Shown here one piece after another: positions 8,687 through 41,603 of a stretch of 64,000 nucleotides of DNA. The notes under the pieces were generated by a model, which searched no databases, had not been told where the DNA came from, and was given only the letters and a program-made list of their open reading frames with translations. Every line of letters begins with the position of its first letter. Within the stretch, counting starts at the first letter, position 1. Location: assembly GCF_002078605.1 (NCBI RefSeq), contig NZ_MSJR01000009.1:1-64000 (forward strand), written 5' to 3'. Both the position numbers and the translations under genes were made by a program. Source of the stretch: Salegentibacter sediminis (GTDB lineage: Bacteria > Bacteroidota > Bacteroidia > Flavobacteriales > Flavobacteriaceae).

Positions 8687-8878
8687 CAGGATGTTAACCG
8701 TAGTGTCGGTAAATTCCCGAAAAGATGGAAGTACGAAATACGCCAGAACAGATAATCCGAGAATGCTTCCCGATAAAAGAAAGGAGGTATGTTTGGCTTT
8801 AATAATAGTTTTTAATTTTTAAGGACTTAGCTAAAATTACAAAATTATGGCATCCTGAAATCCTAAAATTTTTCGTTT

Positions 8879-9544: not shown

Positions 9545-9572
9545 CCAGAAAAAGATAAAGAGAAAAAATCGA

Positions 9573-10253: not shown

Positions 10254-10264
10254 ACTAAATTTGT

Positions 10265-10699: not shown

Positions 10700-10743
10700 C
10701 AGCATAAAATTAAACTGATTTTTATTCTCTTCCGTTAAAATTC

Positions 10744-11706: not shown

Positions 11707-11714
11707 TTCTGCGC

Positions 11715-14528: not shown

Positions 14529-14621
14529 AGTTTATGCTGTTTGACCATACCAAAATTAAACTTTATTTCTCTATTCAAAATAGAAATTTTGATGAGGTCT
14601 TCATGGAGATGAAAAATAAAA

Positions 14622-14642
14622 AACCCGGGGAAGCCCCGGGTT
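14622..14642 (-). terminator. Strong terminator after the M14 peptidase gene
   Basis: AACCCGGGG, loop AAG, CCCCGGGTT; on the minus strand it is followed by a T-rich tract. Nine-base perfect stem located 28 bp after the stop codon at 14670. Confidence 0.9.
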
Positions 14643-14669
14643 AAGAAACTTTTCTTTCCAAAGAAAATC

Positions 14670-17129: not shown

Positions 17130-17245
17130 TTATTAATTTTGAGGATTACAAACCGTAGTAAAGATATTGTTGGGAGCCAAATTAACTAAAAAACTGGCAA
17201 AAAAATATCTAATCTGGGTATCTTTACGCCATCAAAGAATTGCTA

Positions 17246-18856
17246 ATGCCAACCGAGTGTATCCCTTATAAAGAAACAAACTATTTTTCTGAACTAATTT
17301 TAGACTACCTGGCTCAAAAGGAGGAGCTTAAGCCATTTTACAACCGCTTTCCTGAAATTGAGAATTTTAAGGCCCAAATCGAAGAAAAAGCAGTGTTTCC
17401 TATGGAGAACCGGGAGATCCTGGTGCATAGTCTGAAAAAACAATACGCCGAAACAGCAGTTTCCAGCGCTACTGCCAAAAACATCGATAGTCTTTCTCAA
17501 AAAACCACTTTTACCGTGGTTACGGGACACCAGCTTAATCTCTTTACCGGACCTCTTTATTTTCTTTACAAGATCGTTTCCACGATTAATCTCACTAAAA
17601 TTTTAAAGGAAAAATATCCCGAATATAATTTTGTACCGGTTTACTGGATGGCCACCGAAGATCACGATTTTGAAGAGATCAACTTTTTTAATCTCCATGG
17701 GAAAAAATTCAAGTGGGTGAATGCTGAGGAAAGAGCCGGGCGGGATGCGGTAGGCTATCTTTCTACAAATGGCCTCGAAGAGGTATATAAGCTCTTTTCA
17801 GCAGAGATTGGCGGAGGAAAAAACGCCGAAGAGCTCAAGGAATGGTTTAAAAAAGCCTATCTGGAGCACGATAATCTTTCAGCTGCTACCAGATTTCTCG
17901 CTAACGAGCTTTTTAAAGAGCAGGGGCTGGTAATCATTGACGGACAAGGCCAGGAATTAAAAGAACTTTTCATTCCATTTGCCCGGAGAGAGCTTACCGA
18001 TCAACTTGCATATAAAACTACGCTTTCCAAAGCAGAAGCCCTGAGTGAGCTTGGCTATAACGTACAGGTGAACCCCAGGGAGATCAACCTGTTTTATTTG
18101 GACAATGAATTTCGGGAACGCATAATAGAAAGGGAAGGCCGCTATTTTGTTCATGATACCGAAATTGAATGGAGCAGGGAAGAGATCCTGAAGGAACTAA
18201 AGCAACATCCTGAACGCTTTAGCCCAAATGTGATGCTGCGGCCGCTTTATCAGGAAGTGATCCTGCCCAACCTTTGTTACATTGGCGGAGGGGGAGAACT
18301 GGCTTACTGGCTGGAGCTCAAGGATTATTTTGAAGCTGAAAAAGTGACTTTCCCGGTTTTATTGCTGCGGAATTCGGCCTTGATTCAGAATGAAAAAATC
18401 AATGAAAAACGGGAGAAGCTAAATATTTCAATAAAGGAGCTCTTTTTAAAACCCCACGAGCTCATCAACAGAAAAGTAAGACAGATATCTAATATCGATA
18501 TAGATTTTTCACCACAAAAAGAGCATTTGGTGCAGCAATTTCAGCATTTATATGAGCTTGCCGGGCAAACTGACAAATCCTTTTTAGGAGCGGTGAAAGC
18601 CCAGGAGGTAAAACAGTTAAAAGGACTTGAAAACCTGGAAAAACGACTCCTTAAGGCTCAGAAACGAAAACTGGAAGATCATGTACATCGCATAGCCGAA
18701 TTGCAGAACACTTTGTTTCCCAACCAAAGCCTGCAGGAAAGACAAACCAATTTTGCGCAACTCTATGTTGAATATGGTGAAGATCTGATCTCAAGCTTAT
18801 TAAAAGAATTAAACCCACTGGAAGCAGAATTTAAAATATTGACTTTTGGAAAATAA
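17246..18856 (+). CDS. bshC: Bacillithiol synthase BshC
   Basis: 536 residues. BshC adds cysteine to glucosaminyl-malate in the last step of bacillithiol synthesis, the low-molecular-weight thiol used by many Bacteroidetes in place of glutathione. Recognised by TVVTGHQLNLFTGPLYFLYKI, MATEDHDFEEINFF, and MLRPLYQEVILPNLCYIGGGGELAYW; the C-terminal third is the expected coiled coil (residues about 420-510). The ATG at 17246 is preferred over an in-frame TTG six bases earlier. A near-consensus -7 box TATCTTTA lies at 17219-17226. The downstream decarboxylase gene begins 4 bp after the stop, implying one operon. Confidence 0.95.
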   Translation: MPTECIPYKETNYFSELILDYLAQKEELKPFYNRFPEIENFKAQIEEKAVFPMENREILVHSLKKQYAETAVSSATAKNIDSLSQKTTFTVVTGHQLNLFTGPLYFLYKIVSTINLTKILKEKYPEYNFVPVYWMATEDHDFEEINFFNLHGKKFKWVNAEERAGRDAVGYLSTNGLEEVYKLFSAEIGGGKNAEELKEWFKKAYLEHDNLSAATRFLANELFKEQGLVIIDGQGQELKELFIPFARRELTDQLAYKTTLSKAEALSELGYNVQVNPREINLFYLDNEFRERIIEREGRYFVHDTEIEWSREEILKELKQHPERFSPNVMLRPLYQEVILPNLCYIGGGGELAYWLELKDYFEAEKVTFPVLLLRNSALIQNEKINEKREKLNISIKELFLKPHELINRKVRQISNIDIDFSPQKEHLVQQFQHLYELAGQTDKSFLGAVKAQEVKQLKGLENLEKRLLKAQKRKLEDHVHRIAELQNTLFPNQSLQERQTNFAQLYVEYGEDLISSLLKELNPLEAEFKILTFGK

Positions 18857-21062: not shown

Positions 21063-21077
21063 TACTTTTGCCTATGC
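21063..21077 (+). other. attL-like junction with the stranded guaA promoter
   Basis: TACTTTTG at 21063-21070 is a perfect -7 box and is followed by CCTATGC. The run GCCTATGC at 21070-21077 is repeated at 32583-32590, where its ATG is the guaA start codon. A second box TATTTTTG lies at 21044-21051. The sequence TTACTTTTGC also fits the core preferred by CTnDOT-type integrases (TAnnTTTGC). Read as the left end of the island: the native guaA promoter now fires into the element. Confidence 0.6.
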
Positions 21078-21137
21078 TAAAAAATAAAGCTTTTAAATCC
21101 CTATAAATAGGAGGTTTTACCTTTATTAATTGGTTAT

Positions 21138-21146
21138 TGTACAACA
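21138..21146 (+). repeat. Left arm-type repeat TGTACAACA
   Basis: TGTACAACA occurs 61 bp inside the left junction and again at 32472-32480 and 32492-32500, plus an inverted near-copy TGTTGTATA at 32522-32530 that is 52 bp inside the right junction. Similarity at the left copy and the 32492 copy extends into TATGTRTAA. These fit arm-type integrase binding sites; an alternative is that they are the true crossover sites. Confidence 0.5.
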
Positions 21147-21358
21147 TATGTATAACAATATTTTAGTTTTTTTACTTATTCTAAGATTAAAACGACTCTA
21201 AAAAGAGTTTCCTGAGGTGAAAAAAGAAAGGAATTTGATTTTAAAGCATACTCATAGCAGCCTTTAGAGTAATAAAATAGGTTAATTTTTAAACTACTGA
21301 TAATCAAGCACTTGGTTAATTGGTCGAAAAAAAGCACTTTCCCCTATAATAGTATATT

Positions 21359-21942
21359 AAGACCGTTCTGCCGCTTTTTAGAAATAACTCTTTTCAACCT
21401 AAAAAACCATCCTGTAAGGAGATAGGCAATACCTTTTCTTTATATAGGTGTGGAATCTGGTTATTTGTGTTTCTTATTCCTTGTTGCGAAAATTCATTTT
21501 CTCCTTGAATTGGTTTAGGGGTACTTTTCGCATAAAAACTATCAAACACATTAGAGTTCAGTCTTTTTAAATTAAAACAAGAAAGGTAGAGCAATTCTAA
21601 TAGTACATTAGAACCCCTTAGTATAAAGTAAATGGCTTTAAGTTGGTATAAAGTCCTAAATTGAGTTTAGGGTTTCCTAAAGTACTATTAAGTCAGTTAT
21701 TAAACATTGAGTATAGGTTCTGATTTTAGTAGTATAGGTATTAGCCCATTTACATCATACCGTTTAACCTGAATATAGTGGGTTAATCTACTGAGGTAAG
21801 AGGGTTAACTACTGTCCTGAGATGCTCTGTAAGAGACTTTCTTAGTGATGAGGTGTAAGTTGTCATTAGGCATAAGAAAAACCCCCTACAACGTGTGTAA
21901 GGGGTTGAATTATCTTTATATAAAAATAGGCAGAACGGTCTT
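21359..21942. repeat. Inverted repeat pair enclosing about 560 bp
   Basis: AAGACCGTTCTGCC at 21359-21372 is present in perfect inverted form at 21929-21942, and similarity continues outward through a TA-TATA stretch for about 22 bp in all. The right arm overlaps the stop codon of the gene at 21941-22702. Between the arms I see no convincing gene; a 66-codon frame on the minus strand at 21394-21594 has no recognisable features. Could be a decayed insertion unit or the copied 3' end of the neighbouring gene. Confidence 0.5.
21878..21906 (-). terminator. Terminator after the HTH-ended protein gene
   Basis: On the minus strand AACCCC and GGGGTT pair around TTACACACGTTGTAG and are followed by TTTTTC; about 35 bp after the stop at 21941. 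Confidence 0.75.
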
Positions 21943-22702
21943 ATATAGTAAGAGCTAATTTTTCTTTAGCATCCTTCCAGTAAGTTCTTACCGTTCTTTC
22001 ACTTACACCTAATTTCTTAGCTACATTCTTCTGAGTTGGCTTTTCTTCAGAATCCCAATTAACTATAGTGAAGTGAATTTCCTCTATTCTATTATTGCTT
22101 TTCTCTTTTCCTTGAACCTTATTAGCTAAGTCTCTTTTTTCTTGCTCAGTTAGTTCATAGTCAGGATTAAAAATAACCTTAGACTGTTTTTTAATGTTTC
22201 CTTTATAGGGTTTACTCATTATTTGTCCTGCTGCTTTTTTTATCCTTTCTATATTCTCTTCAGTAAATTTTATATTCCCTTCAATAAGGCTTTCATTATT
22301 ACCTAATTTCTTTACGTGTTGAATGAGGTTTTTAGTCTTAGGAATTTGACAGAATTCTACGAAAATATGATATAAACAATTATATAACTGTTCCTGAGTT
22401 AAATGAGGGTTGCATAACATTATTTTATAGCCTATTATTTTCAATTTAGTACCCATTTTAAAGAAAGGTAGGTCATATAGTAAATGGTCGAATCTGATAT
22501 ATTCAGCATCTTTCAGAAATATAGCAGCATCACCATTAAATAGGTGGTAGTTCTCTTCTTGCAGTAGCTTAGTATTATCTAACTGCATGTTATGTGGAAA
22601 GGGTTTAAGAGTGTTTCTCTTTTTCGGTTTAAGTTGGTATTCAGTCTGGAAATTACAACCTTCGAAAGGTTCAATAATTAGTGTTTTTTCTTCTTTTTTC
22701 AT
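21941..22702 (-). CDS. Island protein with C-terminal helix-turn-helix
   Basis: 253 residues, not recognised as a family. The last 35 residues form a clear HTH of the resolvase/sigma-like type: PTQKNVAKKLGVSERTVRTYWKDAKEKL. The middle part (residues about 70-140) is hydrophobic and aromatic, FDHLLYDLPFFKMGTKLKIIGYKIM, suggesting a globular core rather than membrane spans. It is the last gene of the minus-strand series that starts at the promoter near 25400 and it has its own terminator. A DNA-binding role, for example replication initiation or regulation of the element, is inferred from the HTH only. Confidence 0.75.
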   Translation of the reverse strand: MKKEEKTLIIEPFEGCNFQTEYQLKPKKRNTLKPFPHNMQLDNTKLLQEENYHLFNGDAAIFLKDAEYIRFDHLLYDLPFFKMGTKLKIIGYKIMLCNPHLTQEQLYNCLYHIFVEFCQIPKTKNLIQHVKKLGNNESLIEGNIKFTEENIERIKKAAGQIMSKPYKGNIKKQSKVIFNPDYELTEQEKRDLANKVQGKEKSNNRIEEIHFTIVNWDSEEKPTQKNVAKKLGVSERTVRTYWKDAKEKLALTI

Positions 22703-22837
22703 CTTTTTTAATTAATAATTTCTTCGAGATTCTGAGGTTTTACCCTCTCGATAGGCTCTCTTAGGCTCTATCTAATTCTGAATTGACTTCTACATAATTT
22801 TCTATTTTATCTTATTTATAATTTCATTCTTTAAAAG

Positions 22838-22868
22838 TAGTAATGCCCTTTTTAGGGCATCATTACTC
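22838..22868. terminator. Hairpin between recombinase and HTH gene
   Basis: AGTAATG-CCCT, T-rich loop, AGGG-CAT(CA)TTACT. Lies about 70 bp after the recombinase stop on the minus strand; no long T run, so it may instead be an attenuator or processing site. Confidence 0.45.
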
Positions 22869-22908
22869 AATAATTTAATATGTTACTTGCTTCTATGGTT
22901 TACAACCT

Positions 22909-22940
22909 TTCAGAGTTTCACATCCTAAAGGATGCTTACT
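22909..22940. repeat. Copy 1 of a three-copy island repeat
   Basis: CAGAGTTTCACATCC-TAAA-GGATGCTTACTCT, directly after the small recombinase stop codon. Related copies lie at 23624-23653 (same orientation, on the other side of the recombinase gene) and 25666-25696 (opposite orientation). Each has a CATYC/GRATG-type hairpin core. Confidence 0.6.
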
Positions 22941-23546
22941 CTAATCGTAATGCCTTGCAAGTCTCTCTAAGGCTTCTGACTGGTCTAACTTAAGGTAGTG
23001 CTCAGTCTGCTTCATTCTATCATGTCCTAATAGAAATTGAACCTCTCTAAGGTCTTTAGTCTTACTATATAAGTTAGCTCCTGCTGTACGTCTTAATGAG
23101 TGTGCTCCTGCTGTCTTAACCTTCTTACCTAACTCTCCTTGGTCATTAGCAAGGTTTAACCTCTTGTGAGTCCATTGCCTTGTATAAACCTTGTTAGTCT
23201 TATAATTAAAGAAAATAAGGTCATTAACAGTACCATGAGCTAACATACAGTAGTTATAGTAGGTCTCTATTAGCCTGTGAGTATTAGAAGAGAGTATTTT
23301 AGTCTCTAATCTTTTTTTCTTAGCTACATAGCCTGTAATGAAAGGCTTTCCATATTCATTATCTGTATTAATGTCTGAATGCTTCAGCTTTAATAAGTCA
23401 GATACTCTAAACCCTGTATCAATTCCTATAAGGATTAGTAGAGCTTCTACCTTCTTATCCTGCTCATAGGAATTCCCTTTTTCATGGAATAGGTCTATAG
23501 CATATTGTTTAGCCTGAGTGTAATTAAAAGCTGTGGTAGTATTCAT
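22941..23546 (-). CDS. Compact tyrosine recombinase
   Basis: 201 residues containing only the catalytic domain of the phage-integrase family. The active-site set is complete: R47 in DTGFRVSDLL, H149-xx-R152 in HSLRRTAG, H175 in LLGHDRM and the nucleophile Y184 in EHYLKL. The N-terminal SAM-like DNA-binding domain and arm-binding domain are missing, as in small XerC/XerD-like invertases and resolvases. Flanked at both ends by copies of a 30-bp hairpin repeat, which may be its substrate sites. Likely resolves dimers or inverts DNA within the element; the large integrase at 30939-32444 is the better candidate for integration. Confidence 0.85.
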   Translation of the reverse strand: MNTTTAFNYTQAKQYAIDLFHEKGNSYEQDKKVEALLILIGIDTGFRVSDLLKLKHSDINTDNEYGKPFITGYVAKKKRLETKILSSNTHRLIETYYNYCMLAHGTVNDLIFFNYKTNKVYTRQWTHKRLNLANDQGELGKKVKTAGAHSLRRTAGANLYSKTKDLREVQFLLGHDRMKQTEHYLKLDQSEALERLARHYD

Positions 23547-23600
23547 AATGTTTGATTGTTTGATTGATTAATATTCTATTCAGTTGTTGTGCTATACCAT

Positions 23601-23620
23601 AAATGACTAATTAGTCATTT
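23601..23620. promoter_or_regulatory. Perfect 20-bp palindrome upstream of the recombinase
   Basis: AAATGACTAA followed by its complement TTAGTCATTT, 55 bp before the recombinase start and overlapping the end of the small ORF. Candidate operator or hairpin; a degenerate version accompanies the repeat copy near 25691-25710. Confidence 0.5.
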
Positions 23621-23726
23621 ACTCAGAGTCACATTCTAAAGAATGCTTACTCTTTTCTTTTAATGAGTTGGTAAGTGCTCTTACATCCTGAATTAATTCT
23701 TCTATTTCTTCTATTTCTGTATTCAT
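23619..23726 (-). CDS. Candidate 35-residue acidic peptide
   Basis: A short frame starting MNTEIEEIEELIQDVRALT, strongly acidic and helical with regular hydrophobic spacing, ending SKHSLECDSE. It lies downstream of a good promoter (23822-23829) and a structured leader, and 72 bp before the small recombinase gene on the same strand. Its C-terminal codons are made from the repeat copy at 23624-23653. It resembles small regulatory or anti-repressor peptides in size only. Coding status rests on the promoter, the start and the composition; no family is recognised. Confidence 0.4.
   Translation of the reverse strand: MNTEIEEIEELIQDVRALTNSLKEKSKHSLECDSE
23624..23653. repeat. Copy 2 of the three-copy island repeat
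   Basis: CAGAGTCACATTC-TAAA-GAATGCTTACTCT. Differs from copy 1 mainly by matched changes in the stem (ATCC/GGAT to ATTC/GAAT), so pairing is kept. Confidence 0.6.
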
Positions 23727-23760
23727 GTTTTCTCTCTTTTTAAGTTTCTTCTTATTAATG

Positions 23761-23820
23761 GTAAGTAGTGGGAGGTAGCTGAAGGATAAAGAAGAGTAAA
23801 CCCAAACCTCCCAAACTTAC
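23761..23820 (-). ncRNA. Structured 5' leader hairpin
   Basis: GTAAGT at 23761-23766 pairs with ACTTAC at 23815-23820, and GGGAGGT at 23770-23776 pairs with ACCTCCC at 23806-23812. It begins just after the -7 box at 23822-23829, so the transcript would start in this hairpin. The phrase AAACCTCCC recurs at about 24693 upstream of the recombinase-side genes. Could be a leader attenuator or a separate small RNA. Confidence 0.45.
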
Positions 23821-23821
23821 A

Positions 23822-23866
23822 CAAATATACAATTAATCTGTTTACCTTACAACTAAATAAACTATC
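23822..23866 (-). promoter_or_regulatory. Island promoter P2 (shared architecture)
   Basis: Minus-strand -7 box TATATTTG (plus CAAATATA at 23822-23829), then 22 bp, then the element GATAGTTTATTTAGT (23852-23866). Same spacing and same element as the promoters at 25391-25435 and 29413-29457. Confidence 0.65.
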
Positions 23867-23968
23867 ATTAAGTAAACACTTATAACACTCTTCTTTATAA
23901 ATTATTGGTTTACAGTTACTTAGTTATTTTATAGTGTTTACATAATATGGTATTATGTCTACACTTTC

Positions 23969-24622
23969 TTATTCTTGTTCTTTCTGCTTAGGTATTATAG
24001 CTTCTAACATTGCCTGTGTATGTTTAGGGTGGTTAATCTTATGTAAGAAAGGTATAGAAGGGTTAGGAATTAAATTATGTCCTTTATCCTGTGTATAGTA
24101 ACCATCTAATTTTAATACTCTGAATGCTTCAGCTATTCTTATTGAGGTCTGAGCATCTGTATTTAAAATACCTTCTGCTTGTGCTCTCTCTACTAACTTA
24201 ATAAGCTCCTGAGCTATTTCTAATGCAGTACTCTGGAAAGGGTTCGAAGTATATGTAGTGTGCTTCTCTTGTATAGCTACTGTATCTAATTTGAATTGCC
24301 CTTGTTCTAACTTGTAAGGGTATTTCTTCCATTCCTTAGACTTAGTTCTAAATTCAAGTGATATACTTTTCATATCTACTCCTAAAGCATCATTATTAAA
24401 TTCATCTGAAGCATTAGGGAACTGATAAAAATCTTTAATCCATTCTTTTAAAAATACTTCTGCATTATCTTTCATCTGTACCTTTTCTTCTGGTGTGAAA
24501 GGGGTTTTTACTTCTGTCTCTACTCTTGAGATAAAAGAGTTTAAAATTTCCTCTTGTTTAGCTCCTTGAGCATTGTCTCCATTTATAGAGAATTGGTCTA
24601 CGTGTAATACATCTTTTTTCAT
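23969..24622 (-). CDS. Island protein of unknown function, 217 residues
   Basis: Not recognised. Soluble, charged, with no signal peptide or membrane span. Residues 28-75 are helical and acidic (RVETEVKTPFTPEEKVQMKDNAEVF) and a proline-asparagine loop near 185 (GHNLIPNPSIPFLHKINHPKHTQ) precedes the end. It follows the 200-residue protein gene with a 140-bp gap on the same strand and probably belongs to the unit transcribed from the promoter at 25391-25435. Position opposite the repressor-like regulator suggests an early or replication-type gene; that is inference. Confidence 0.7.
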   Translation of the reverse strand: MKKDVLHVDQFSINGDNAQGAKQEEILNSFISRVETEVKTPFTPEEKVQMKDNAEVFLKEWIKDFYQFPNASDEFNNDALGVDMKSISLEFRTKSKEWKKYPYKLEQGQFKLDTVAIQEKHTTYTSNPFQSTALEIAQELIKLVERAQAEGILNTDAQTSIRIAEAFRVLKLDGYYTQDKGHNLIPNPSIPFLHKINHPKHTQAMLEAIIPKQKEQE

Positions 24623-24762
24623 TTTTCTTCTTTTTTTAGTTATTTACTTTTTAATAAAAGGGAATTTTTCTGTAGGTATGTAGGCAGCTTAAACCTCCCT
24701 AAAGACTTGATATTCTGTGGAATACACCCCCTTTTTGATTTATTTACTTTTTAATTATTTGC

Positions 24763-25365
24763 TTAAACTTTAAATTTTCTGTTTTCAATTATTCCTGAAA
24801 AAATTCCTTTATAACTAATGTCTTTTAGAGGGAATTCATAGGATTCTAAGTGAGGTTGGTAGTAGTTCTCTAATCTATCTTTCTTTATTAATCCCTGTAG
24901 GATGTAAGAGAAAGCTTCTATATTGATTCTTATAAGCCTTAGGGAGCTATCTAATCTTTCATTAATTTGTATGTAGTAAATAGGCTTTAGGTTGTTGGTG
25001 TGGTTCTGAGTCCACTTGTGAACCTCTGAGAAAGGGTCTGAGATATGCCTGTTTAAAGTGAAGGAGTTATAATCTGAGCTTCTAAACCTGAGAGATACAC
25101 CATATACAGAACCCTCTATAAGAGCTGTAGCATCTAAGCCAGTTAGTTTATCTAACATCCCTCTTGTAATTAGTTCTATATCCTGAGCCTGTAGAGTTTC
25201 TAAAAGGATAGGTTTATACTGAAGGAATTTCTCCTGCTCAATTTTAAAACCTTCTTTATACTCTAAGTTATTATGTCCTCTATTATTCATCTCTCTTCTT
25301 GTTTCTACTACTATATGTCTGTTTTTCGCTGAATTGGGTAAAATGTTTGCTTCAGGAATAGACAT
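24763..25365 (-). CDS. Island protein of unknown function, 200 residues
   Basis: Not recognised. Soluble, mixed alpha/beta appearance, no signal peptide. Notable stretches are SVYGVSLRFRSSDYNSFTL and KPIYYIQINERLDSSLRLIRIN. The start MSIPEANILPN fits a -7 box at 25391-25398 that would put transcription start about 20 bp upstream. It is the first gene of the leftward series of the island, divergent from the regulator at 26266 across about 900 bp of empty DNA. This is where a lytic-type or excision operon would sit in a phage-like switch. Confidence 0.7.
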   Translation of the reverse strand: MSIPEANILPNSAKNRHIVVETRREMNNRGHNNLEYKEGFKIEQEKFLQYKPILLETLQAQDIELITRGMLDKLTGLDATALIEGSVYGVSLRFRSSDYNSFTLNRHISDPFSEVHKWTQNHTNNLKPIYYIQINERLDSSLRLIRINIEAFSYILQGLIKKDRLENYYQPHLESYEFPLKDISYKGIFSGIIENRKFKV

Positions 25366-25390
25366 TTAGTAAATACCTTGTTTACTTATG

Positions 25391-25435
25391 CAAATATACG
25401 AATAGTTAAAGTATTGTTAAAATAGATAAACTATT
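25391..25435 (-). promoter_or_regulatory. Island promoter P1 (shared architecture)
   Basis: Perfect minus-strand -7 box TATATTTG (plus 25391-25398), 22 bp, then AATAGTTTATCTATT (25421-25435), itself an inverted repeat AATAG/CTATT. Drives the 200-residue protein gene starting at 25365. Confidence 0.7.
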
Positions 25436-26265
25436 CTTTAGTATTGAAATAATTTCGTATGAGAAAAAGGCTCTACCTTTCTTTTATTGGGCAGGGAAAT
25501 AGTACTAATCCCTGTACAGAAGAGGAGTCGAACAAGAGAAGACTTAAATACTGCTCCCTAAGAGCTTGTATCTAATGGAGGGTGTAAGTAGAGGTAGAGT
25601 AGTATTAAAACTGTGAGAGAGTGTGTGAGCTGTGTAGGATGCTGTTAAAACCTTCTAAAGGGAGTTCCTAAAGGATGTGAGACTCTGAGTAAAATGCCTT
25701 AGGTCATTTTATGGTGTACCTCTAATCTTTATAGAGTTGTACTTATTTAGGATGTAGAATGTGAGTAGTATTATCATGAGTGTAATTTTCTACATAGATA
25801 ATCCTTTCTGAGGGGAATATAAAAAATGTAAAATACTGTATAGTAGTTAATTGAGAGTTTATCTGAAGGAATAAGGGTAAAATATACATTTATTATTGAG
25901 TGGTTGTGAACTGTGGGAATAGTTGGAGAGTTGGTGTTAGGGGGGTTAAAATGTAGAATTGCCCCAATCCACGACCTTTATTTTCTTTTATAAGAAGGTA
26001 AGTCCTTTATTTACAAGGGTTTAAAAGATTATTAGATTATGTAAATAGTTGAGGGTTAGTGTTTTACTTGGATACTAATTAGAACCTCTAAGACCTGGTA
26101 TTGAACCTATAGGATACTTATTATGAACCTGTATGTACCTATACCTTTCTTTATACTCTATATAGGGATATTCTCTTTAGGTTAGTAGAAGTTCTTGCGG
26201 AATTTAATACTATTAATAAAATTCGTATTTTTTACCAGTCATAATTAATTTAAAATTGATATCAA
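25436..26265. other. Gene-free 0.8-kb region between divergent island genes
   Basis: No frame with coding character in either strand. It contains the third, inverted copy of the island repeat at 25666-25696, followed by a degenerate AAAATG/CATTTT palindrome at 25691-25710, and is rich in GAG/GTGAG words on the plus strand. Its size and place between a regulator and the first leftward gene suit an origin, a regulatory switch or a small RNA locus; nothing in the sequence settles which. Confidence 0.4.
25666..25696. repeat. Copy 3 (inverted) of the island repeat
   Basis: TCCTAAAGGATGTGAGACTC followed by TGAGTAAAATG; its complement matches copies 1 and 2 through ACTCAGAGT and the following hairpin. 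Confidence 0.5.
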
Positions 26266-27018
26266 TTGAAAAACCTAAAAGAGTTAGCAGAACTACGGAA
26301 AATTAAAGGTATAACTTGGAATGATTTAGCTAATGGTTTACCTGTGACAGGTGAAGGTTTAAGAATTGCGTTTAACAGGGGAAAAGTACAGAAGGAATAC
26401 CTCCCAATTATTGAAGAGAATCTAAGTTTGAAAAATGAATACACTCTAAATAATCACGAAATATTGACTGCACAAGAAATTAAAGAAAAAAGGGAAGCCT
26501 TAGGACTGTCTCAAGAAGAATTGGCAAGATTAATTGGTGTTGGTAAAAACACTATTTATAATTACGAATCAGGTAAAAAAATACCTAAGGGTAAATATCC
26601 CATCCTACAGAAAGTTTTAAATAATAAGGTTGATACAAATATTGAGGAAATTAAACAGGAAATTAATAAGAGAGGCTTAACTGCCTATAAGATAAGTAAA
26701 CATGTTCCTTTAACAGAGGCAGGTATACAACGGATTATTAATGGAGATTCTAAGCCAAGGGAAAGCACCTTACTTCTTTTAAATAATTATTTGTTTGGAG
26801 ATAATTTCGAAGAAAAGGAAACTCCTTCAGAAGAGGTAAGGCATGAGAAAGAAGTATTAGAAGAAATAGAATCTTTATTACGTGAATTAAAAAAAGGTCA
26901 GGTTAAAACCCATATTGATAATCAAGAAATTTATAGTCTTATTCAGAAGCTTACTCTAAAGGTAGGTGAGATGCAAATTCAGTTAAATCAAATGCAGGAA
27001 AAGGAGAATGTAGATTAA
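26266..27018 (+). CDS. Three-HTH XRE-type regulator, TTG start
   Basis: 250 residues starting at TTG (a stop codon lies three codons upstream and no ATG is available). The central unit at residues 67-117 is a canonical XRE/Cro HTH: IKEKREALGLSQEELARLIGVGKNTIYNYESGKKIP. Residues 5-50 (ITWNDLANGLPVTGEGLRIAF) and 125-176 (GLTAYKISKHVPLTEAGIQRIINGDSKP) look like two further Cro-like units, and 190-246 is a leucine-rich coiled coil for oligomerisation. It is the only long plus-strand gene of the left half of the island and faces the leftward operon, the layout of a phage repressor. Control of the shared promoters is inferred. Confidence 0.8.
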   Translation: MKNLKELAELRKIKGITWNDLANGLPVTGEGLRIAFNRGKVQKEYLPIIEENLSLKNEYTLNNHEILTAQEIKEKREALGLSQEELARLIGVGKNTIYNYESGKKIPKGKYPILQKVLNNKVDTNIEEIKQEINKRGLTAYKISKHVPLTEAGIQRIINGDSKPRESTLLLLNNYLFGDNFEEKETPSEEVRHEKEVLEEIESLLRELKKGQVKTHIDNQEIYSLIQKLTLKVGEMQIQLNQMQEKENVD

Positions 27019-27102
27019 GAAACTACATCTAAACAAGAAACCCCCACCAACTTAATGATGAGGGTTCTCCAGAAAACAATTAATAAAAAAAATAGAAATA
27101 GT

Positions 27103-29385
27103 TTAAAATTTGGCTTTAGCTTTTATTTGCTGTACTCTTTCAGAGGTTTTACTTATCTCTGATACACTTACTACAGGTGAAGGAACTTGAGAGAATGCAT
27201 TTCCTACTCTTTCTCCTATCTTAGCTGCAAGTATATCATAATCTATAATACTTGAAGGTCTTGCATTCCCTATAGGATTACCTCCCTCAGCCATATTAAT
27301 AGCACTTAATACACCTCCATATTTCATAGTGCTTTTCTTGTTTATTACTGCTTCGTTTCCTTCTAATTCATAATCTCCGAAAATCATACCTCCATTAGCA
27401 TGGGAATTTCCTTGTAATAAACCTCCTTTAGCGAATTTCTTTTTAGTGTCTTTACTTGTAAGGCTTCCAAGTGTAGTACCTAATGCTGAAAGAGCAGCAC
27501 TACCTAATATAGATGCTGTAGCCTTAGCAGCACTTGCACCTATAATAGTATTCTGAGTTTGAGCAGCTAACATAGCAGGTACATTAGCAGGAAAGGGTAT
27601 AGCAGCAGCATTAGCTAAATTGGATGCCTGAGCAGCCTTAGTAGTTATATTTACTTTAGCAGCCTGTATAGCAGCATCTATAGCAATACCTGCAATCTGA
27701 GCAGCTAAGGAATCTCCTAAGATACCTTTAAGCATTCCATTAAGTTGGTAAGCTATATTAGCAGTTTCTTCTGCATTCTGCATTCTTATAGAAAGCTCTT
27801 CTCTCATGGTCTCACTAAATTTCTTTAGCATTTCCTCTTGAAAGTTTTCCTGAATACTACCTAAAATCTCATTTCTTTTCTCCTGAGCTAATCTTAGTAA
27901 TTCAGTCTTTTCCTCTTCCTTAAGCTGCATGTTTTCAATATCCCTTACATGAGCTTCATAATCTTGTTCTGCTTGTATCTCTGCTCTTATAATTTCGTCT
28001 TCAGCTTTCATTAGTGCAAGTTCCTGCTCTAATGCTCTTTTCTCAGCTTCAAACTCCTTAATTCTTTCTAATTTCTTTCTCTGCTCTTCCTCTTCATTAA
28101 CTACTTCATCTTTAGTAGCCTGAATCTTTTCTACTACAGCTTCTTTCTTATACTGTACTCTCTTAGCTTCACCTTCTCTTACAATAGCATTAAGCTTATT
28201 CTGTTGAGTGGTTACGGCTTCATTTTCAGCAGCTATAGCATCATTAATATCTGCAAGTTTAGTAGCAAGTTCTGCTCTGTCTGCATCTGAGGTATCATTA
28301 GCCTGTTGTTGTAATGCTATTAAATCAGCTTCTAAGTTTAATCTGTCTGTAGCATTCTTAGATATTTCTTTCTGAATTTCTATAGTTCTTCTTGCAGCAG
28401 CTTCTCTCTCAGATAAACTTTTAGTCTGGTCTTCAGCTAATCTATTCTGCTCTTTATATTCCTGTCTTAACTTACCTTGTTGAGTAATAAAATCAGCTTC
28501 AGATTTACTAAGATTTTCTTTTATTCTCTGAATTTCTTTACCTCTTGCTATAGCATCTCCCATATCAGTTTTTATAGTAGTACCGATACTTTTAATACCA
28601 TCTAAAAAGCCCTGCCAATCTCCTGTAAAGAGTTTAGCGAATGAAAGCCCTAATTCCTGTACTTGACCTTTTAAAGTCTGTACAACCTGCTTAAGAGGTG
28701 TAAGTACTCTGTTTACAGCATTAATACCATCCTGAGTCTGAGTAAGGTAAGTTACAAGAGAACCTAAAGCTATTACTAATAAACCTACTCCTGTAGATGC
28801 AAGAGCTATTCTAAATAATTTTAGTGCTCCTGTAGATTTACCCACAACCATTGCAGAAACTTTCTGTACTGCATTCATTGCCTGAGTACCTTTAGTGTAA
28901 GTTTCTTGAGCACCTGTAGCCTCTAATATGGAATCCTTGTAGTTTCCTACATTCATTTTCTGCTTTATGTGAGAATCTTGGTTCTCTTTCATAAAGTCAG
29001 TATTCTGGTCTATTTTCTTATTGATATTATCAAGAGCTGCTCTACCTTGTTCTGTTGAGATATTAACCTCTTTTCGTGCTTTCCTAAGAGCCTTATTATT
29101 AGCTTCAGCATCTCCAAGGGTTTTAACCTCCTTTTTAAGTTCATTAGTTAGGTTCTTAGTAGCTCCTGTAACCTCTTGTAAGGTCTTTTCTTGTGCTCTA
29201 TAAGTACTATTAGCTGTTTTTAAATCCGCTGCATTCTGAATGAACTGAGTACTATTTTCCTCTCCTGAGTCTTTAAGTTCTTTCTGAGCTTTCTTAAGGT
29301 CATTAATTTGAGCCTTAGTAGCTTTCATAGACTGTAGAAGACTGTCTGTGTTTATTTTTAATTCTGCAATTTTAACCGTTTCCAT
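27103..29385 (-). CDS. Phage tail tape-measure-like protein
   Basis: 760 residues. Residues 1-130 are coiled coil (LKINTDSLLQSMKATKAQI). Residues 188-214 are strongly hydrophobic (LALASTGVGLL-type helix). Residues about 275-520 are a long coiled coil rich in K, E and Q. Residues 560-650 are an Ala-rich hydrophobic segment. The C-terminus has the glycine-rich FAKGGLLQGNSHANGGMIFG and ELEGNEAVINKKS typical of tape measure proteins of Bacteroidetes phages. In a tail these set the length and help DNA entry. Here no tail tube, chaperone, sheath, baseplate or head gene accompanies it. It has a promoter of the shared island type. May be a remnant or a decoy that acts on another phage. Confidence 0.78.
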   Translation of the reverse strand: METVKIAELKINTDSLLQSMKATKAQINDLKKAQKELKDSGEENSTQFIQNAADLKTANSTYRAQEKTLQEVTGATKNLTNELKKEVKTLGDAEANNKALRKARKEVNISTEQGRAALDNINKKIDQNTDFMKENQDSHIKQKMNVGNYKDSILEATGAQETYTKGTQAMNAVQKVSAMVVGKSTGALKLFRIALASTGVGLLVIALGSLVTYLTQTQDGINAVNRVLTPLKQVVQTLKGQVQELGLSFAKLFTGDWQGFLDGIKSIGTTIKTDMGDAIARGKEIQRIKENLSKSEADFITQQGKLRQEYKEQNRLAEDQTKSLSEREAAARRTIEIQKEISKNATDRLNLEADLIALQQQANDTSDADRAELATKLADINDAIAAENEAVTTQQNKLNAIVREGEAKRVQYKKEAVVEKIQATKDEVVNEEEEQRKKLERIKEFEAEKRALEQELALMKAEDEIIRAEIQAEQDYEAHVRDIENMQLKEEEKTELLRLAQEKRNEILGSIQENFQEEMLKKFSETMREELSIRMQNAEETANIAYQLNGMLKGILGDSLAAQIAGIAIDAAIQAAKVNITTKAAQASNLANAAAIPFPANVPAMLAAQTQNTIIGASAAKATASILGSAALSALGTTLGSLTSKDTKKKFAKGGLLQGNSHANGGMIFGDYELEGNEAVINKKSTMKYGGVLSAINMAEGGNPIGNARPSSIIDYDILAAKIGERVGNAFSQVPSPVVSVSEISKTSERVQQIKAKAKF

Positions 29386-29412
29386 TTAATTTTTTCTATT
29401 TCTATTTCCTTC

Positions 29413-29457
29413 TACATAGATACAACTAATTTCTTAGTTGAAAAAATAGATAAACTA
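29413..29457 (-). promoter_or_regulatory. Island promoter P3 (shared architecture)
   Basis: Minus-strand TATCTATG (one mismatch to TAnnTTTG) at 29413-29420, 22 bp, then AATAGTTTATCTATT at 29443-29457, identical to the element at 25421-25435. It lies 28 bp before the tape-measure gene start. Confidence 0.65.
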
Positions 29458-29761
29458 TTATTTAACCCTAAAAACCAAGGGGTTAGGGGTTGTTTAAGAG
29501 GGGTGTTTAGGGTAAATTCATAGTAAATTATTCAATACTCTGGAGGTCACATTTTTTAAAGTGTAGACATATTAACAATTTCATAATTAACAACTATTGT
29601 AAGTATCTGAATAACAATTAATTAATGGGTTTGTTTGATATTTTGGTGTTAATAAATTGCCTCAACTTTATTTATATAGCATATACATAACCGTTATATT
29701 TGTTTAAATAATTAACGTGTAGTTTTAAGGGGCATAACTACTTAACTGACAAATTTTTACG

Positions 29762-29950
29762 ATGGAATTTATTGAGTTAGCAGTATTATCTATTGCGGTT
29801 GAAACAATTAGGGCAGGAGGTAGGATTTTTCAACATGAAATAAGAGACTACTTAAAAAACTTCAGATTTAAACGGTGGCACTATGCTGTTTTTTATGTAG
29901 TAGGTATTTATATAGCTCTCTTGACAGTAGTATTATTAATATTTGGTTAG
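29762..29950 (+). CDS. Small membrane protein
   Basis: 62 residues with an ATG start. Residues 41-61 (AVFYVVGIYIALLTVVLLIF) form one membrane span; the preceding part is basic and amphipathic (RDYLKNFRFKRWHY), so the N-terminus is expected inside the cell. It ends 4 bp before the stop of a convergent gene. Size and topology recall holin-like or toxin-like phage peptides, but no family is recognised. It is transcribed opposite to the tape-measure gene from a 376-bp spacer with no other gene. Confidence 0.5.
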   Translation: MEFIELAVLSIAVETIRAGGRIFQHEIRDYLKNFRFKRWHYAVFYVVGIYIALLTVVLLIFG

Positions 29951-29954
29951 TAGA

Positions 29955-30329
29955 TTAGGTTTCTAATTGTTCAAGAATTAAGAGCTTATTTTCAATATCT
30001 TTTTCAGGGTCTATAGATAAGCTTACATATTCCTCATAAAGATTCCCCTTACTTACCTTAGAGAGAAGTCTATTAATAAACTTTTTCTGAGTTATACCTC
30101 CTACCTTACCTGAGTAGTGTAGAAGAAAGGTCATATTTTTTAGGGCTTCATCATATCTTTTCTCCCTTGCTAAAATATCTGCCATCTGGCGATACATCAT
30201 GTACCACAAGGAATGACCTTCAGTAAGAAGTTTTAGCATATTCTCATTAGCTTTTTTCCAAGCTAAATTATATTCCTTTCTCTTCTTTAGAGTGGTTACT
30301 TCATTAGTATAGTCTTCGAAATTGTTCAA
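29955..30329 (-). CDS. TPR-like helical protein
   Basis: 124 residues, all helical. Residues 15-85 resemble two tetratricopeptide-like helix pairs (EYNLAWKKANENMLKLL and YDEALKNMTFLLHYSGK). No signal peptide. It lies within the leftward set of genes on the right side of the island and ends almost where the small membrane protein ends on the other strand. A protein-protein interaction role is inferred from the repeat-like pattern only; not recognised further. Confidence 0.65.
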   Translation of the reverse strand: MNNFEDYTNEVTTLKKRKEYNLAWKKANENMLKLLTEGHSLWYMMYRQMADILAREKRYDEALKNMTFLLHYSGKVGGITQKKFINRLLSKVSKGNLYEEYVSLSIDPEKDIENKLLILEQLET

Positions 30330-30400
30330 ATTAATTTATGTGAAACCTTAATATAGTAGAGAATAAAATAAGAGGTAAACGAGTATGAATATAATTTTTA

Positions 30401-30829
30401 TTAATTAGCCTTTTCTAAATAGATTGTTATAGCACCTCCATGTACATAGCCTTCTTCTACATCTAAAACCATTTCTCCAGAGTTGATACTTTCAATTTCT
30501 GCCCTCATTCTAACTGTACCTGAATAAGCACCCTCATGTTCAAGTTCTAAAATATCTCCTGTAATAAGATATTCTCCTTCAGCATCTCCATTACCGCAAT
30601 ACTGTCTAACTACCTCTCCATTATTATAAAAGTTTAAAGAATGGGGAGCTTCATCACATTCATATTCCCGTTCTGTACCATCATCCCAAACCATTTGAGT
30701 GAATTCCCATTTTCCTATAATTAATTCCTTATTAGCGTTTCTATTTTCTTCCTCAGTAGAGTCATCCTCTGAGCAACTTATAAATAGAAAAATAAAACAT
30801 AGTAAATAAAGGGGGGTAAATTTTTTCAT
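30401..30829 (-). CDS. Lipocalin-like lipoprotein carried on the island
   Basis: 142 residues. The signal MKKFTPLYLLCFIFLFISC ends in a lipobox (FISC) followed by SEDDS, the acidic +2 to +5 pattern linked to surface export of Bacteroidetes lipoproteins. The mature part has the LIIGKWEFTQMVW opening of small lipocalin-like proteins and a beta-rich ending. A similar chromosomal protein is at 39375-39770. As the only obvious cargo of the island it may change the host surface, for example block an entering phage, but that is inference. Confidence 0.75.
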   Translation of the reverse strand: MKKFTPLYLLCFIFLFISCSEDDSTEEENRNANKELIIGKWEFTQMVWDDGTEREYECDEAPHSLNFYNNGEVVRQYCGNGDAEGEYLITGDILELEHEGAYSGTVRMRAEIESINSGEMVLDVEEGYVHGGAITIYLEKAN

Positions 30830-30938
30830 AATTAATGATTTTTAGTAAAAATATTTAAGAGATTAAGATACTAATCTTTTAGGAATGGATAAACTAACTT
30901 AAGTAAAAGCTCTTACAGTATGTAGTAAGCTCTAATTC

Positions 30939-32444
30939 TTATAATGAAGGTATTTTTTGATTCAATCCTAAAGAATCCTTAGTAGCTAATGTTCTTCTAT
31001 AAAGTTCTGTAGTGCCTATAGAGTTATGACCTAAAGCCATAGATATATAGTGAGTATTTACATTAGATTCTAATAAAAGTTGAGTAAAGGTATGTCTACT
31101 ACTGTGAGTACTAATAGGAGTCTTTATATCTAACTTTTTACCCATTCTTTTAATCTGTTGGTTATATTTACTTCTCTCATTATTTATCTTTTCATAGTCC
31201 TTCTCATTAATAAGCTCTACCTTTAAATTAACAGTAGGTTGATTCTTTTTCTCATCCCATAAAAAAGGAAATACAAGCTCATCAGGATATTTTAGGTGTG
31301 CTTCTTGAATTTTCTCTTTATAAAGGTCAAGTAGTCGCTCATTAGTTCTTTTTAATATTATTTCGTGTTCCTTAATTGCACTTTTTAAAATTATATAATC
31401 CTTTTCTTTAGCTATTAATTCATACATATCTTCAAATTGACCTGCTGCTATTGCTTTATATATTTCTAAAGGAGAATCTCTTAGCTTTTCTTCTTCTTCT
31501 AAATCATAATATTTCACTTTTATTGACTCCTCAAACATCTCTTTCTTTTTATACAACTCCTTAAGCTTCTTAGTCATATCAGGAAAGTATCTACTTAGAG
31601 GTAAGTCAAGGTATTCTAACCCATTGTGAAACAGGTTAGCAATCATTCTTTTATTAGTCTTGAAGGTTTTATAATCTAAAATTATATTTCCATCCTCTAC
31701 ATAAAGATTATCCCAAGTGAGAGTAAGTACATCTGAAACCCTTAAACCTCCTCCATATAATTGAAACATAAACATATCTCTATACAGGTTATGTTTCTTT
31801 TTTTTCCAATTCTTTTCACTAAAAATCTTAAGCTCTTCTTTAGTGAGTGCTTTATTCCTTACAGGACTTCTTTTAAACTTTATTCTGTGGAAAGGATTAT
31901 AATTATCTGGTAGCTTTATCTCTTCATCTTCTTTAGCATAATTTACAAATAGTTGTAGAGTCTGTAAGTACTGATTAGCTGAATTACTTTTAATTCCATC
32001 TTTCAGCATAAACATATTAAAGGATTCCAGTAGGTGAGGAGTGAGTTGTGCGAAGGTCAGGTCTAATTTATCTATACTTTCTAAATACTTCTGAAATTTC
32101 TTCTTAGCTGAGGTTCTTATATTGACTGTACCTTGGTTAGGTGTATTCTCTATTACTTTTTCTATGTATGGTAGTATCTGGTGCTTTTTAGAAAGTTTCT
32201 CTCTTACATACTCTTTTTCTCCTACACCTCTTATAGAATTTAATTCCCTTTTTATAGTCTCATTAATTTCTTTATAGTTTGGTTCTAATGAAGTCACTCC
32301 ATCACCTGACTTTCTGAAATTTTTAGTATTTATTTTAAAACCTAATGATTTAAAAGTACTTTTGCGGTTAATTATAGTCCTTATAAAAAGATAGGATTTA
32401 GAAGGTTCTTTAGGAACTTTCCTCAGGATTAATTTTACACTCAT
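30939..32444 (-). CDS. Large tyrosine integrase of the island
   Basis: 501 residues. N-terminal arm-binding region (to about 90), SAM-like core-binding domain (100-190) with SANQYLQTLQLFVNYA, then the catalytic domain with R in YGGGLRVSDVLTL, H-xx-R in STHSSRHTFTQ, H in MALGHNS and Y in TELYRRTL. Between the first arginine and the HxxR box lies an extra segment of about 100 residues rich in K and E, likely coiled coil, which is unusual. The start MSVKLILRKVPKEPS was chosen because the longer frame runs through the repeat-rich att region. Its place next to the right junction and its CTnDOT-like target make it the probable integrase. Confidence 0.88.
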   Translation of the reverse strand: MSVKLILRKVPKEPSKSYLFIRTIINRKSTFKSLGFKINTKNFRKSGDGVTSLEPNYKEINETIKRELNSIRGVGEKEYVREKLSKKHQILPYIEKVIENTPNQGTVNIRTSAKKKFQKYLESIDKLDLTFAQLTPHLLESFNMFMLKDGIKSNSANQYLQTLQLFVNYAKEDEEIKLPDNYNPFHRIKFKRSPVRNKALTKEELKIFSEKNWKKKKHNLYRDMFMFQLYGGGLRVSDVLTLTWDNLYVEDGNIILDYKTFKTNKRMIANLFHNGLEYLDLPLSRYFPDMTKKLKELYKKKEMFEESIKVKYYDLEEEEKLRDSPLEIYKAIAAGQFEDMYELIAKEKDYIILKSAIKEHEIILKRTNERLLDLYKEKIQEAHLKYPDELVFPFLWDEKKNQPTVNLKVELINEKDYEKINNERSKYNQQIKRMGKKLDIKTPISTHSSRHTFTQLLLESNVNTHYISMALGHNSIGTTELYRRTLATKDSLGLNQKIPSL

Positions 32445-32471
32445 GATGTTTGATTTATAGTAGAATTCAAA

Positions 32472-32530
32472 TGTACAACAAGGAGTGTTTTTGTACAACA
32501 ATATGTGTAAAACTATAGGAATGTTGTATA
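32472..32530. repeat. Right arm-type repeats
   Basis: TGTACAACA at 32472-32480 and 32492-32500 (20 bp apart, two helical turns) and inverted TGTTGTATA at 32522-32530. Matches the left copy at 21138-21146. They lie just upstream of the integrase gene, where self-regulation by Int binding is common. Confidence 0.5.
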
Positions 32531-32574
32531 AAAAATATTTATAAACCATTAATAATAAAGGCGTTATGTCAATA

Positions 32575-32590
32575 TAATTTTAGCCTATGC
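32575..32590 (+). promoter_or_regulatory. attR-like junction and replacement promoter for guaA
   Basis: TAATTTTA-GCCTATGC, where GCCTATGC repeats the left junction and ATG is the guaA start. TAATTTTA is one base from the -7 consensus TAnnTTTG and lies 5 bp before the ATG, so guaA mRNA may be nearly leaderless. The island therefore seems to bring its own -7 box to restore expression of this essential gene. Confidence 0.55.
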
Positions 32591-34119
32591 AACAAAACGT
32601 ACTTATTTTAGACTTCGGTTCGCAGTATACGCAGCTTATTGCAAGGCGCGTAAGAGAACTAAATATTTACTGCGAAATTCATCCCTACAACAAAATTCCA
32701 AAAGATCTTTCGGACTTTAAAGCGGTTATCCTTTCGGGTAGTCCCTTTTCTGTAAGGGCAGAAAACGCTCCGCACCCGGACCTTTCGCAAATTCGTGGAA
32801 AGAAACCAATGCTGGCAGTTTGCTATGGAGCTCAGTATCTGGCCCAGTTTCACGGTGGAAAAGTGGAAGCTTCTGAAACACGGGAATATGGCCGAGCCAA
32901 TCTTTCGGTGATCAAAGATGCGGAACTTTTGTTCGAAAACATAATGGAAAATTCACAGGTTTGGATGAGCCATAGTGATACTATAAAGGAATTACCCACT
33001 AATAGTGTGCGTCTCGCCAGTACAACCGATGTGCTAAACGCCGCATACAGAATTGAAGGGGAAGAGACTTTTGCGATTCAGTTTCATCCGGAAGTATATC
33101 ATTCCACCGATGGGAAACAACTCCTGGAAAACTTTCTTGTGAAAATTGCCGGAGTAGCGCAAACCTGGACCCCGGGAAAATTTGTAGATCTCACGGTTTC
33201 AGAATTAAAGGAAAAAATAGGAGACGAAAAGGTGGTGCTTGGCCTAAGTGGCGGAGTAGATTCCAGCGTGGCTGCGGTGCTTCTGCATAAAGCTATCGGG
33301 AAAAACCTCTACTGTATCTTCGTAAATAACGGACTTCTTCGTAAGAACGAATTTGAAAGTGTACTGGACCAGTATAAAGATATGGGGCTTAATGTAAAAG
33401 GAGTAGATGCTTCGGCACGGTTTCTGAAAGCTCTTGAAGGTATTAGCGAGCCCGAAGCCAAGCGAAAAGCTATCGGTAATACTTTTATCGAAGTATTTGA
33501 TGATGAGGCACACGAAATTAAAGACGTGACCTATCTTGCTCAGGGCACTATTTACCCCGATGTGATTGAATCGGTTTCGGTAAGTGGAGGACCTTCAGCA
33601 ACAATTAAGTCGCATCATAATGTAGGTGGTTTGCCAGATTTTATGAAACTTAAGATCGTGGAACCTTTGAAGATGCTCTTTAAGGATGAAGTTAGAAGAG
33701 TGGGTGCTGAAATGGGCATAGACAAAGAATTACTCGGAAGACATCCTTTTCCCGGCCCTGGCCTGGCGATAAGAATCCTGGGAGATATTACCGCCGAGAA
33801 GGTGCGTATTCTTCAGGAAGTAGATCATATTTTTATCCAGGGATTAAGGGACTGGATGCTTTATGATAAGGTTTGGCAGGCAGGAGCGATCCTGTTACCG
33901 GTTAGTTCGGTAGGGGTTATGGGAGATGAAAGAACCTATGAGAAAGTAGTGGCCTTGAGAGCCGTAGAATCTACCGATGGTATGACTGCCGATTGGGTGA
34001 ACCTGCCCTATGAGTTTTTGCAAAAAACCTCTAATACCATAATAAATCGGGTTAAGGGCGTTAATAGAGTAGTATATGATATAAGTTCTAAACCCCCGGC
34101 AACTATTGAGTGGGAGTAG
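32587..34119 (+). CDS. guaA: GMP synthase (glutamine-hydrolysing)
   Basis: 510 residues, complete. Converts XMP to GMP using ATP and glutamine. The class I amidotransferase domain (1-190) has C79 in [11 protein letters not shown] and the His-Glu pair in [10 protein letters not shown]. The ATP pyrophosphatase domain has the PP-loop [16 protein letters not shown]. The C-terminal dimerisation domain ends [14 protein letters not shown] as in the family. The coding sequence is intact although the island ends at its start codon. Followed 21 bp later by a LysM protein gene and then two more genes with TAATG overlaps, so guaA may head a four-gene unit. Confidence 0.97.
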
Positions 34120-41579: not shown

Positions 41580-41603
41580 ACTTTTTCACAGGAAATACTT
41601 AAA

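Follow-up and report, generated by a model that had tools for sequence, protein, structure and literature searches.

We lean, by analogy with known systems, towards reading the region around positions 27103–29385 of the window (the whole stretch of 64,000 nucleotides analysed here, from Salegentibacter sediminis) as a phage satellite that inserts its own tape measure protein (TMP) into the tail of a helper phage. The data show the boundaries of an integrated element, an intact TMP with no other recognised virion gene, a palindrome that the TMP shares with further element genes, two sister elements in which a TMP likewise stands alone, and different phage relatives for the three TMPs. Its mobilisation, its packaging, its regulation and the entry of its TMP into virions are inferred.

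The ends of the element are defined by an 8-bp att core, GCCTATGC, present at both ends; because its copies occupy 21070–21077 and 32583–32590, the element is placed at 21078–32590. The empty site was recovered in eight of the nine same-genus loci fetched, where both flanks are joined, while the ninth locus (L031) holds one flank only. The same-genus genomes G200, G208, G209 and G211 gave a left-flank match but no locus could be obtained from them, and G210 gave no match. A second sequence, TTGTACAAC, has just two plus-strand copies in the 64 kb, each 60–90 bp inside an element end, placed as integrase arm sites would be; this role is inferred from position. The boundary features are as follows.

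21078–32590, no strand: integrated element of 11,513 bp, GC 0.318 against about 0.43 around it (flanks joined in same-genus loci, att core, composition).
21070–21077, no strand: left att core GCCTATGC, a direct repeat at the junction with host sequence.
32583–32590, no strand: right att core GCCTATGC, a direct repeat at the junction, overlapping the guaA start codon.
21137–21145, plus-strand copy: possible integrase arm site TTGTACAAC, left; role inferred.
32491–32499, plus-strand copy: possible integrase arm site TTGTACAAC, right; role inferred.

The interval is a discrete mobile element with its own integrase and att sites; that it moves is inferred. No close relative of it was found in the searches run, so selection on the window TMP could not be measured. 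A scan of genome contigs using the TMP alone confirmed none of 33 candidates, and one copy of the element is known. As a separate observation, the insertion cuts guaA off from its native upstream region (32560–32600). At the empty site TACTTTTG, which we take to be a -7-like box, stands just before the guaA start codon, and the element supplies TAATTTTA in its place.

Besides the TMP, the element encodes an integrase, a small second tyrosine recombinase, an XRE regulator, proteins of 217 and 200 aa, a 253-aa HTH-like protein and three small ORFs.

27103–29385, minus strand: lone TMP, 760 aa (PHROGs matches, alignment with phage TMPs, C-terminal pattern, hydrophobic segment).
30939–32549, minus strand: main tyrosine integrase, 536 aa as listed, or 501 aa from a later ATG at 32444 (Phage_integrase and SAM_5 domains).
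22941–23546, minus strand: second tyrosine recombinase, 201 aa, catalytic domain only (Phage_integrase, E 3.7e-21).
26266–27018, plus strand: XRE/HTH_3 regulator, 250 aa (Pfam HTH_3, E 3.9e-20).
23969–24622, minus strand: 217-aa protein of a family common to sister elements (12 strong loci including the window).
24763–25365, minus strand: 200-aa orphan protein, encoded on the strand of the 217-aa gene and upstream of it (present in 1 of 397 family genomes, its own).
21941–22702, minus strand: 253-aa protein with a C-terminal helix-turn-helix (weak HTH matches at about residues 212–251, below cut-offs).
29762–29950, plus strand: 62-aa small membrane-protein-like ORF (sequence inspection; family matches not meaningful).
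29955–30329, minus strand: 124-aa ORF, weakly TPR-like (below cut-off).
30401–30829, minus strand: 142-aa lipoprotein-like ORF, possible cargo (signal-like N-terminus by inspection; weak matches below cut-offs).

The two recombinases and the XRE regulator had been named in an earlier, sequence-only reading of the window, and Pfam and PHROGs searches confirmed them. A single-sequence fold of the 200-aa orphan reached a pLDDT of only 31.9. The three small ORFs between the TMP and the integrase (29762–30829) look like cargo, and the lipoprotein-like one has a weak, sub-cut-off resemblance to an immunity protein family. An Rfam search of the element returned no matches; about 0.8 kb of it (25440–26260), which has no Rfam match and no 60-aa ORF, could hold a packaging or replication site. 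A 23-nt inverted repeat, 91% complementary (21358–21380 and 21921–21943, at the 3' end of the 253-aa ORF), brackets 540 bp without an ORF longer than 66 aa and might serve the small second recombinase as a substrate.

The ORF at 27103–29385 runs on the minus strand through 760 codons from ATG to stop, with no internal stop or frameshift. Five PHROGs tape-measure families match it (best phrog_3336, E 2.8e-8; weakest, E 0.15). A Pfam search of the ORF returned no family named TMP, and NCBIfam gave coiled-coil matches only, far under the cut-off (SMC, 30 bits against 567). Aligned with the TMP of L012, an IMG/VR phage with head and tail genes whose locus carries terminase, endolysin and tail genes beside the TMP, the protein is 41.9% identical over 874 columns, covering residues 2–760. 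Among 50,697 phage records, 86 match the window TMP, every one at less than 60% identity, and none spans 80% of it in one place. In the 11 phage TMPs examined the strongest hydrophobic segment falls at 131–231, a range that includes its position in the window TMP (residue 193); the C-terminal pattern G-x4-G-x2-H-x2-GG, invariant across 13 TMPs, is kept too. Full-length homology, hydrophobic segment and C-terminal pattern together identify the ORF as an intact phage TMP; that it sets tail length in a virion is inferred. No second TMP of similar type was found in the host genome.

The window and the 20 kb that follow it were searched with 13 phage and integrase queries, together with the ORFs of four phage loci, and yielded no further homologue of a terminase, portal, capsid or tail gene. 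Compared with these four loci and with an 11-locus phage reference set, the TMP was the sole match in the element, and neither structural nor lysis remnants appeared. Neither family searches nor the four phage loci revealed a lysis gene in the element. The same two approaches gave no candidate for a tail chaperone or hub gene, of which a very divergent one could escape. The sequence-only reading had described an intact, frameshift-free, 760-residue tape-measure-like protein with no other virion gene; the first part held in the ORF check, the PHROGs matches and the L012 alignment, and the second in the family searches and the comparisons with 13 queries and four phage loci. The element thus lacks a complete set of virion and terminase genes, as satellites do; its dependence on a helper for packaging and transfer is inferred.

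The TMP gene is linked to the rest of the element by a 15-bp palindrome, AATAGATAAACTATT.

29445–29459, no strand: operator-like palindrome AATAGATAAACTATT, 60 bp ahead of the start of the TMP gene, an exact copy of 25421–25435; role inferred.
25421–25435, no strand: palindrome AATAGATAAACTATT, exact copy, 56 bp ahead of the 200-aa gene (itself followed by the 217-aa gene); role inferred.
23852–23866, no strand: degenerate AATAGATAAACTATT copy with three mismatches, about 300 bp upstream of the small recombinase, adjoining TATATTTG.

We take TATATTTG to be a -7-like box. Exact copies of AATAGATAAACTATT in the window number two, against 3e-4 expected in the element from base composition. With a tolerance of up to three mismatches, 14 matches occur in the window when palindromic sites are counted on both strands, where 6.2 are expected from shuffles of the whole window, a sequence less AT-rich than the element; a two-mismatch palindrome also lies outside the element, at 41594. 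Since the exact palindrome is common to the TMP and the 200/217-aa genes, the TMP appears to be wired into the element's own control. The sequence-only reading had given the TMP its own promoter of the island type, a claim that held at the level of sequence only, through this palindrome. Control of the TMP through an operator shared with the 200/217-aa genes is likewise an inference from sequence alone.

How often this type of TMP stands alone was examined with a profile of 13 TMPs (E <= 1e-10), run over 397 family genomes drawn evenly from the larger family. Because genomes were subsampled and at most two candidates were scored per genome, some TMPs may have been missed. The TMP type was found in 14 of the 397 genomes, among phage genes in 12 and alone in two, namely the window and Mesoflavibacter zeaxanthinifaciens DSM 18436 (L051; L061 is the same place). 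At nine of the 12 phage-context loci a terminase large subunit was present (by terminase matches in seven, by homology in two). At the other three (L026, L089 and L090) no terminase was seen in 20 kb, and these were counted as phage loci on TMP neighbours that match each other and other phage-like loci. The contexts of L021–L026 were judged from ORF lists, with terminase matches in five of the six. On each side of L051, 20 kb gave no match to terminase, portal, capsid or TMP queries. Incidentally to the survey, the prophage around the G363 TMP (L086) matches IMG/VR contig 2693429858_000001 (L082) gene for gene, with very high scores.

The two lone TMPs of the survey share a neighbour. A gene of the 217-aa family is present at both lone-TMP loci and at none of 18 phage loci, some of them near-duplicates (Fisher one-sided p 0.011). 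The 18 phage loci were searched with a profile of the family; two members used as queries found no match in the 50,697 phage records. Scans of viral contigs with the 200-aa protein, the 217-aa protein and the 217-family alignment confirmed no locus, and a PDB fold search with a model of the family (mean pLDDT 68.7) gave nothing at E <= 0.001. Strong members were found at 12 loci, counting the window; L063 is the same place as L019. Weak matches in G307, G580, G502, G531 and G660 (E about 1e-5 to 1e-3; L056, L072–L075) were left out of the counts; two of these loci, L073 and L074, are Mu-like by inspection. Integrase candidates in the sister elements match Phage_integrase or its SAM-like domain at E <= 1e-5 in nine cases out of ten, L018 being the exception.

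Three of the 12 strong loci carry a TMP: the window, L051 and L062. The last, a 6.7-kb Marixanthomonas MAG contig without an integrase, supplied a third lone TMP that was reached through the 217-family search and not through a TMP search. With the window excluded, as it had been found through its TMP, two of 11 strong loci carry a TMP against about 2e-4 expected per 20-kb locus (P about 2e-6). This expectation assumes a mean genome of 3.6 Mb, ignores the clustering of mobile genes and is stated for 20 kb, a length that three of the loci do not reach. Eight of the 12 show neither a TMP nor the lone tail protein described next, L052 and L053 among them being cut by contig ends soon after the 217 gene. 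The remaining locus, L071, comes from a different family of the order. Instead of a TMP it carries a lone homologue, at E values down to 2e-40, of a tail protein encoded next to the TMP in phages; in 10 of 11 reference loci the gene for this protein is directly upstream of the TMP gene or separated from it by one small gene. The relative of this tail protein in phage phi46:1, gp20, is annotated as present in virions by mass spectrometry. The sequence-only reading had suggested looking for co-occurrence of the TMP with the two recombinases and the XRE regulator. That failed for the second recombinase and the regulator, since no clear counterpart of either was seen in the strong sister elements; co-occurrence held for the 217-aa gene as the partner of the TMP.

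Among the sister elements, L051 has a small terminase (Terminase_2, 26.7 bits against a Pfam cut-off of 26.1; phrog_51, E 1e-11), and the cut edge of L062 shows the apparent end of another (phrog_51, E 0.0027). L019 carries a homologue (E 1.6e-24) of the gene immediately preceding the terminase large subunit in L082, a gene with no named family.

Some other features of the sister loci were noted in passing. At L071, a satellite-like element (7643–18072) holds the homologue of the TMP-neighbour tail protein (11094–13217), a primase and a small basic protein resembling DUF5681-type proteins in other sister elements. In L051, a cytosine-methyltransferase-like gene and its neighbours (14365–18124) resemble restriction cargo by inspection. 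The L051 element adjoins tmRNA, as do L020 and L050.

The lone TMPs are only 25–28% identical to one another, and each is closer to a phage TMP: 42% for the window with L012, 46% for L051 with L023 and 39% for L062 with L082. A maximum-likelihood tree of 14 TMPs requires, on its starred branches, three label changes to account for the three lone TMPs. The window groups with L012 (support 100/100) and L051 with L023 and phi46:1 (100/100); the grouping of L062 with L081 and L082 falls just below the starred level (94/98). Because each is placed with different phage TMPs, the lone TMPs appear to have been captured independently. Three label changes could formally also be produced by one gain and two losses, which remains possible; three captures are the simpler reading because the identities point to different phage TMPs. 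We consider it likely that the three were captured separately from different phage lineages. Shortening was rejected as a rule for lone TMPs, whose lengths of 760, 905 and 940 aa compare with 859, 908 and 904 aa in the nearest phages and with 810–1022 aa across 11 phage TMPs.

A helper resident in the host genome was not detected with the terminase and portal families searched: Terminase_3 and portal-family searches gave no match. Matches to phrog_2 were rejected as a resident helper's terminase, being by inspection a PhoH-like ORF (C3) and a DEAD-box-helicase-like ORF (C19). The host genome does carry other integrases. A resident helper is not excluded, because further terminase families, such as phrog_38 of L023, fell outside the search. 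With none detected, the helper may come from outside.

From these observations we propose that the element is an 11.5-kb integrated parasite that would move by means of a tailed helper phage encoded elsewhere, putatively a relative of L012. On replication of the helper, the element would excise with its own integrase, and the TMP would be expressed together with the 200/217-aa genes under their shared operator. The satellite TMP would then replace that of the helper, and the particles containing satellite DNA would have chimeric tails. For packaging, the argument depends on the sister elements because family searches recognised no small terminase (TerS), primase or capsid-redirecting gene in the window element.

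The sequence-only reading had raised three possibilities: an anti-phage decoy, parasitism of a helper's tail, and membership of a satellite. The comparative evidence supports the last two jointly and neither shows nor excludes the decoy. We favour the satellite and tail-parasite readings because the element is bounded by att sites, the 217-aa family recurs beside lone TMPs, a sister element has a small terminase, the TMPs belong to different lineages, and the PLE satellites of Vibrio cholerae provide a precedent. The outcome that would have counted against the earlier reading, relatives always lying in full tail operons with this copy degraded, did not materialise: the copy is intact and two other lone TMPs exist. 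A decoy remains possible. In that case the TMP would poison tail assembly of an incoming phage by sequestering its tube, chaperone or baseplate, and would protect the host without any role in satellite particles. Since tails assemble on the TMP as a scaffold, one that does not match could block their formation; interference with tail or virion assembly is known in other systems (PMC12987554, PMC11364771, PMC10884400), and the cytosine-methyltransferase-like gene in L051, identified by inspection, suggests that such elements can carry defence genes. However, a decoy would not need full length, yet the lone TMPs measure 760, 905 and 940 aa against 810–1022 in phages and keep both the hydrophobic segment and the C-terminal pattern. 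PADLOC matches to the window TMP are weak (best E 0.014, to SMC-like JetC).

It is unlikely that the region is a prophage relic, or an element in which a TMP acquired by chance rides as a passenger without present function. The phage origin of the TMP, the lack of a recognised satellite packaging gene in the element and the single known copy speak for this view. Against it, the TMP is open over 760 codons with its invariant positions kept; integrase, recombinase and att sites are in place; the palindrome is exactly common to the TMP and other element genes; and lone TMPs of different phage lineages stand beside one family, the 217-aa proteins. A prophage remnant in particular was rejected, as no other phage gene was recognised while att sites, integrase and TMP are all in place. 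Least probable, and in our view very doubtful, is a different virus-like element with its own unusual particle or injection device, for which the TMP would be the ruler of a tube encoded elsewhere in the genome. Several element genes do lack a recognised family, which leaves some room for this, but searches with the tail genes of four phage loci found no homologue across the window and the 20 kb beyond it.

A bolder version of the satellite reading, which we hold tentatively and would not yet bet on, is that the 217-aa family marks an undescribed lineage of Bacteroidota satellites. These would reprogramme helper tails by capturing single tail components (the TMP or its neighbour), each from the phage lineage parasitised, and the TMP alone would suffice for the swap. 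In the open-access literature searched (titles and abstract openings, with partial coverage), we found no report of TMP-bearing satellites in Bacteroidota. If the satellite reading is true, tail takeover would become a general strategy of satellites, given lone TMPs captured separately by distant elements of the Flavobacteriaceae; if the bolder version is true, it would be a repeated, convergent one beyond Vibrio. Each captured TMP indicates a helper lineage, so helpers can be sought. The question of how a satellite TMP displaces that of its helper would find its simplest setting in an element with one tail gene.

Compared with same-family tailed prophages and Cellulophaga phage phi46:1, the window element has a homologous TMP, and integrase and HTH genes of the same broad families, but it differs in lacking a recognised terminase, portal, capsid, tail tube, baseplate or lysis gene. 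PICI and SaPI-type islands are generally recognised by a TerS that redirects packaging and by a primase/replication module. The window element resembles them in size range, tyrosine integrase, regulator and specific att site, and its sister L051 has a TerS. It differs from PICIs in that TerS, primase and a capsid-redirecting gene were not recognised in it, although a primase is present in the sister L071. The cf-PICIs, for which putative tmp genes are indicated (Extended Data Fig. 10 legend; PMC12987554), share a predicted tmp in satellites outside Vibrio; they form capsids, whereas no capsid gene was found in the window element.

The closest parallel is with the PLEs, the first satellites known to manipulate tail assembly, takeover of capsids and packaging having been known earlier (PMC12987554). 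PLEs encode an alternative TMP (tmp), a tail chaperone (tac) and a hub protein (bhuB); their TMP replaces that of the phage in satellite virions, which have chimeric tails (PMC12987554). Deletion of tmp cut transduction by about 99.9% for PLE11, 96% for PLE1 and 99% for PLE4 (PMC12987554), and PLE tails are 10 nm shorter, as expected, in an experimental demonstration dated 2026 (PMC12987554). Unlike the PLEs, the window element resides in a host of another phylum and has no recognised tail chaperone or hub, its sister elements carry a small terminase (L051) or a lone TMP-neighbour tail protein (L071), and the evidence presented here is not experimental. Like the PLEs, it is integrated, lacks a complete tail module and encodes a TMP of its own that has diverged from those of phages. 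The length gap is also of similar size, 95 aa for PLE and 99 aa for the window TMP relative to that of its nearest phage, which is not a known helper.
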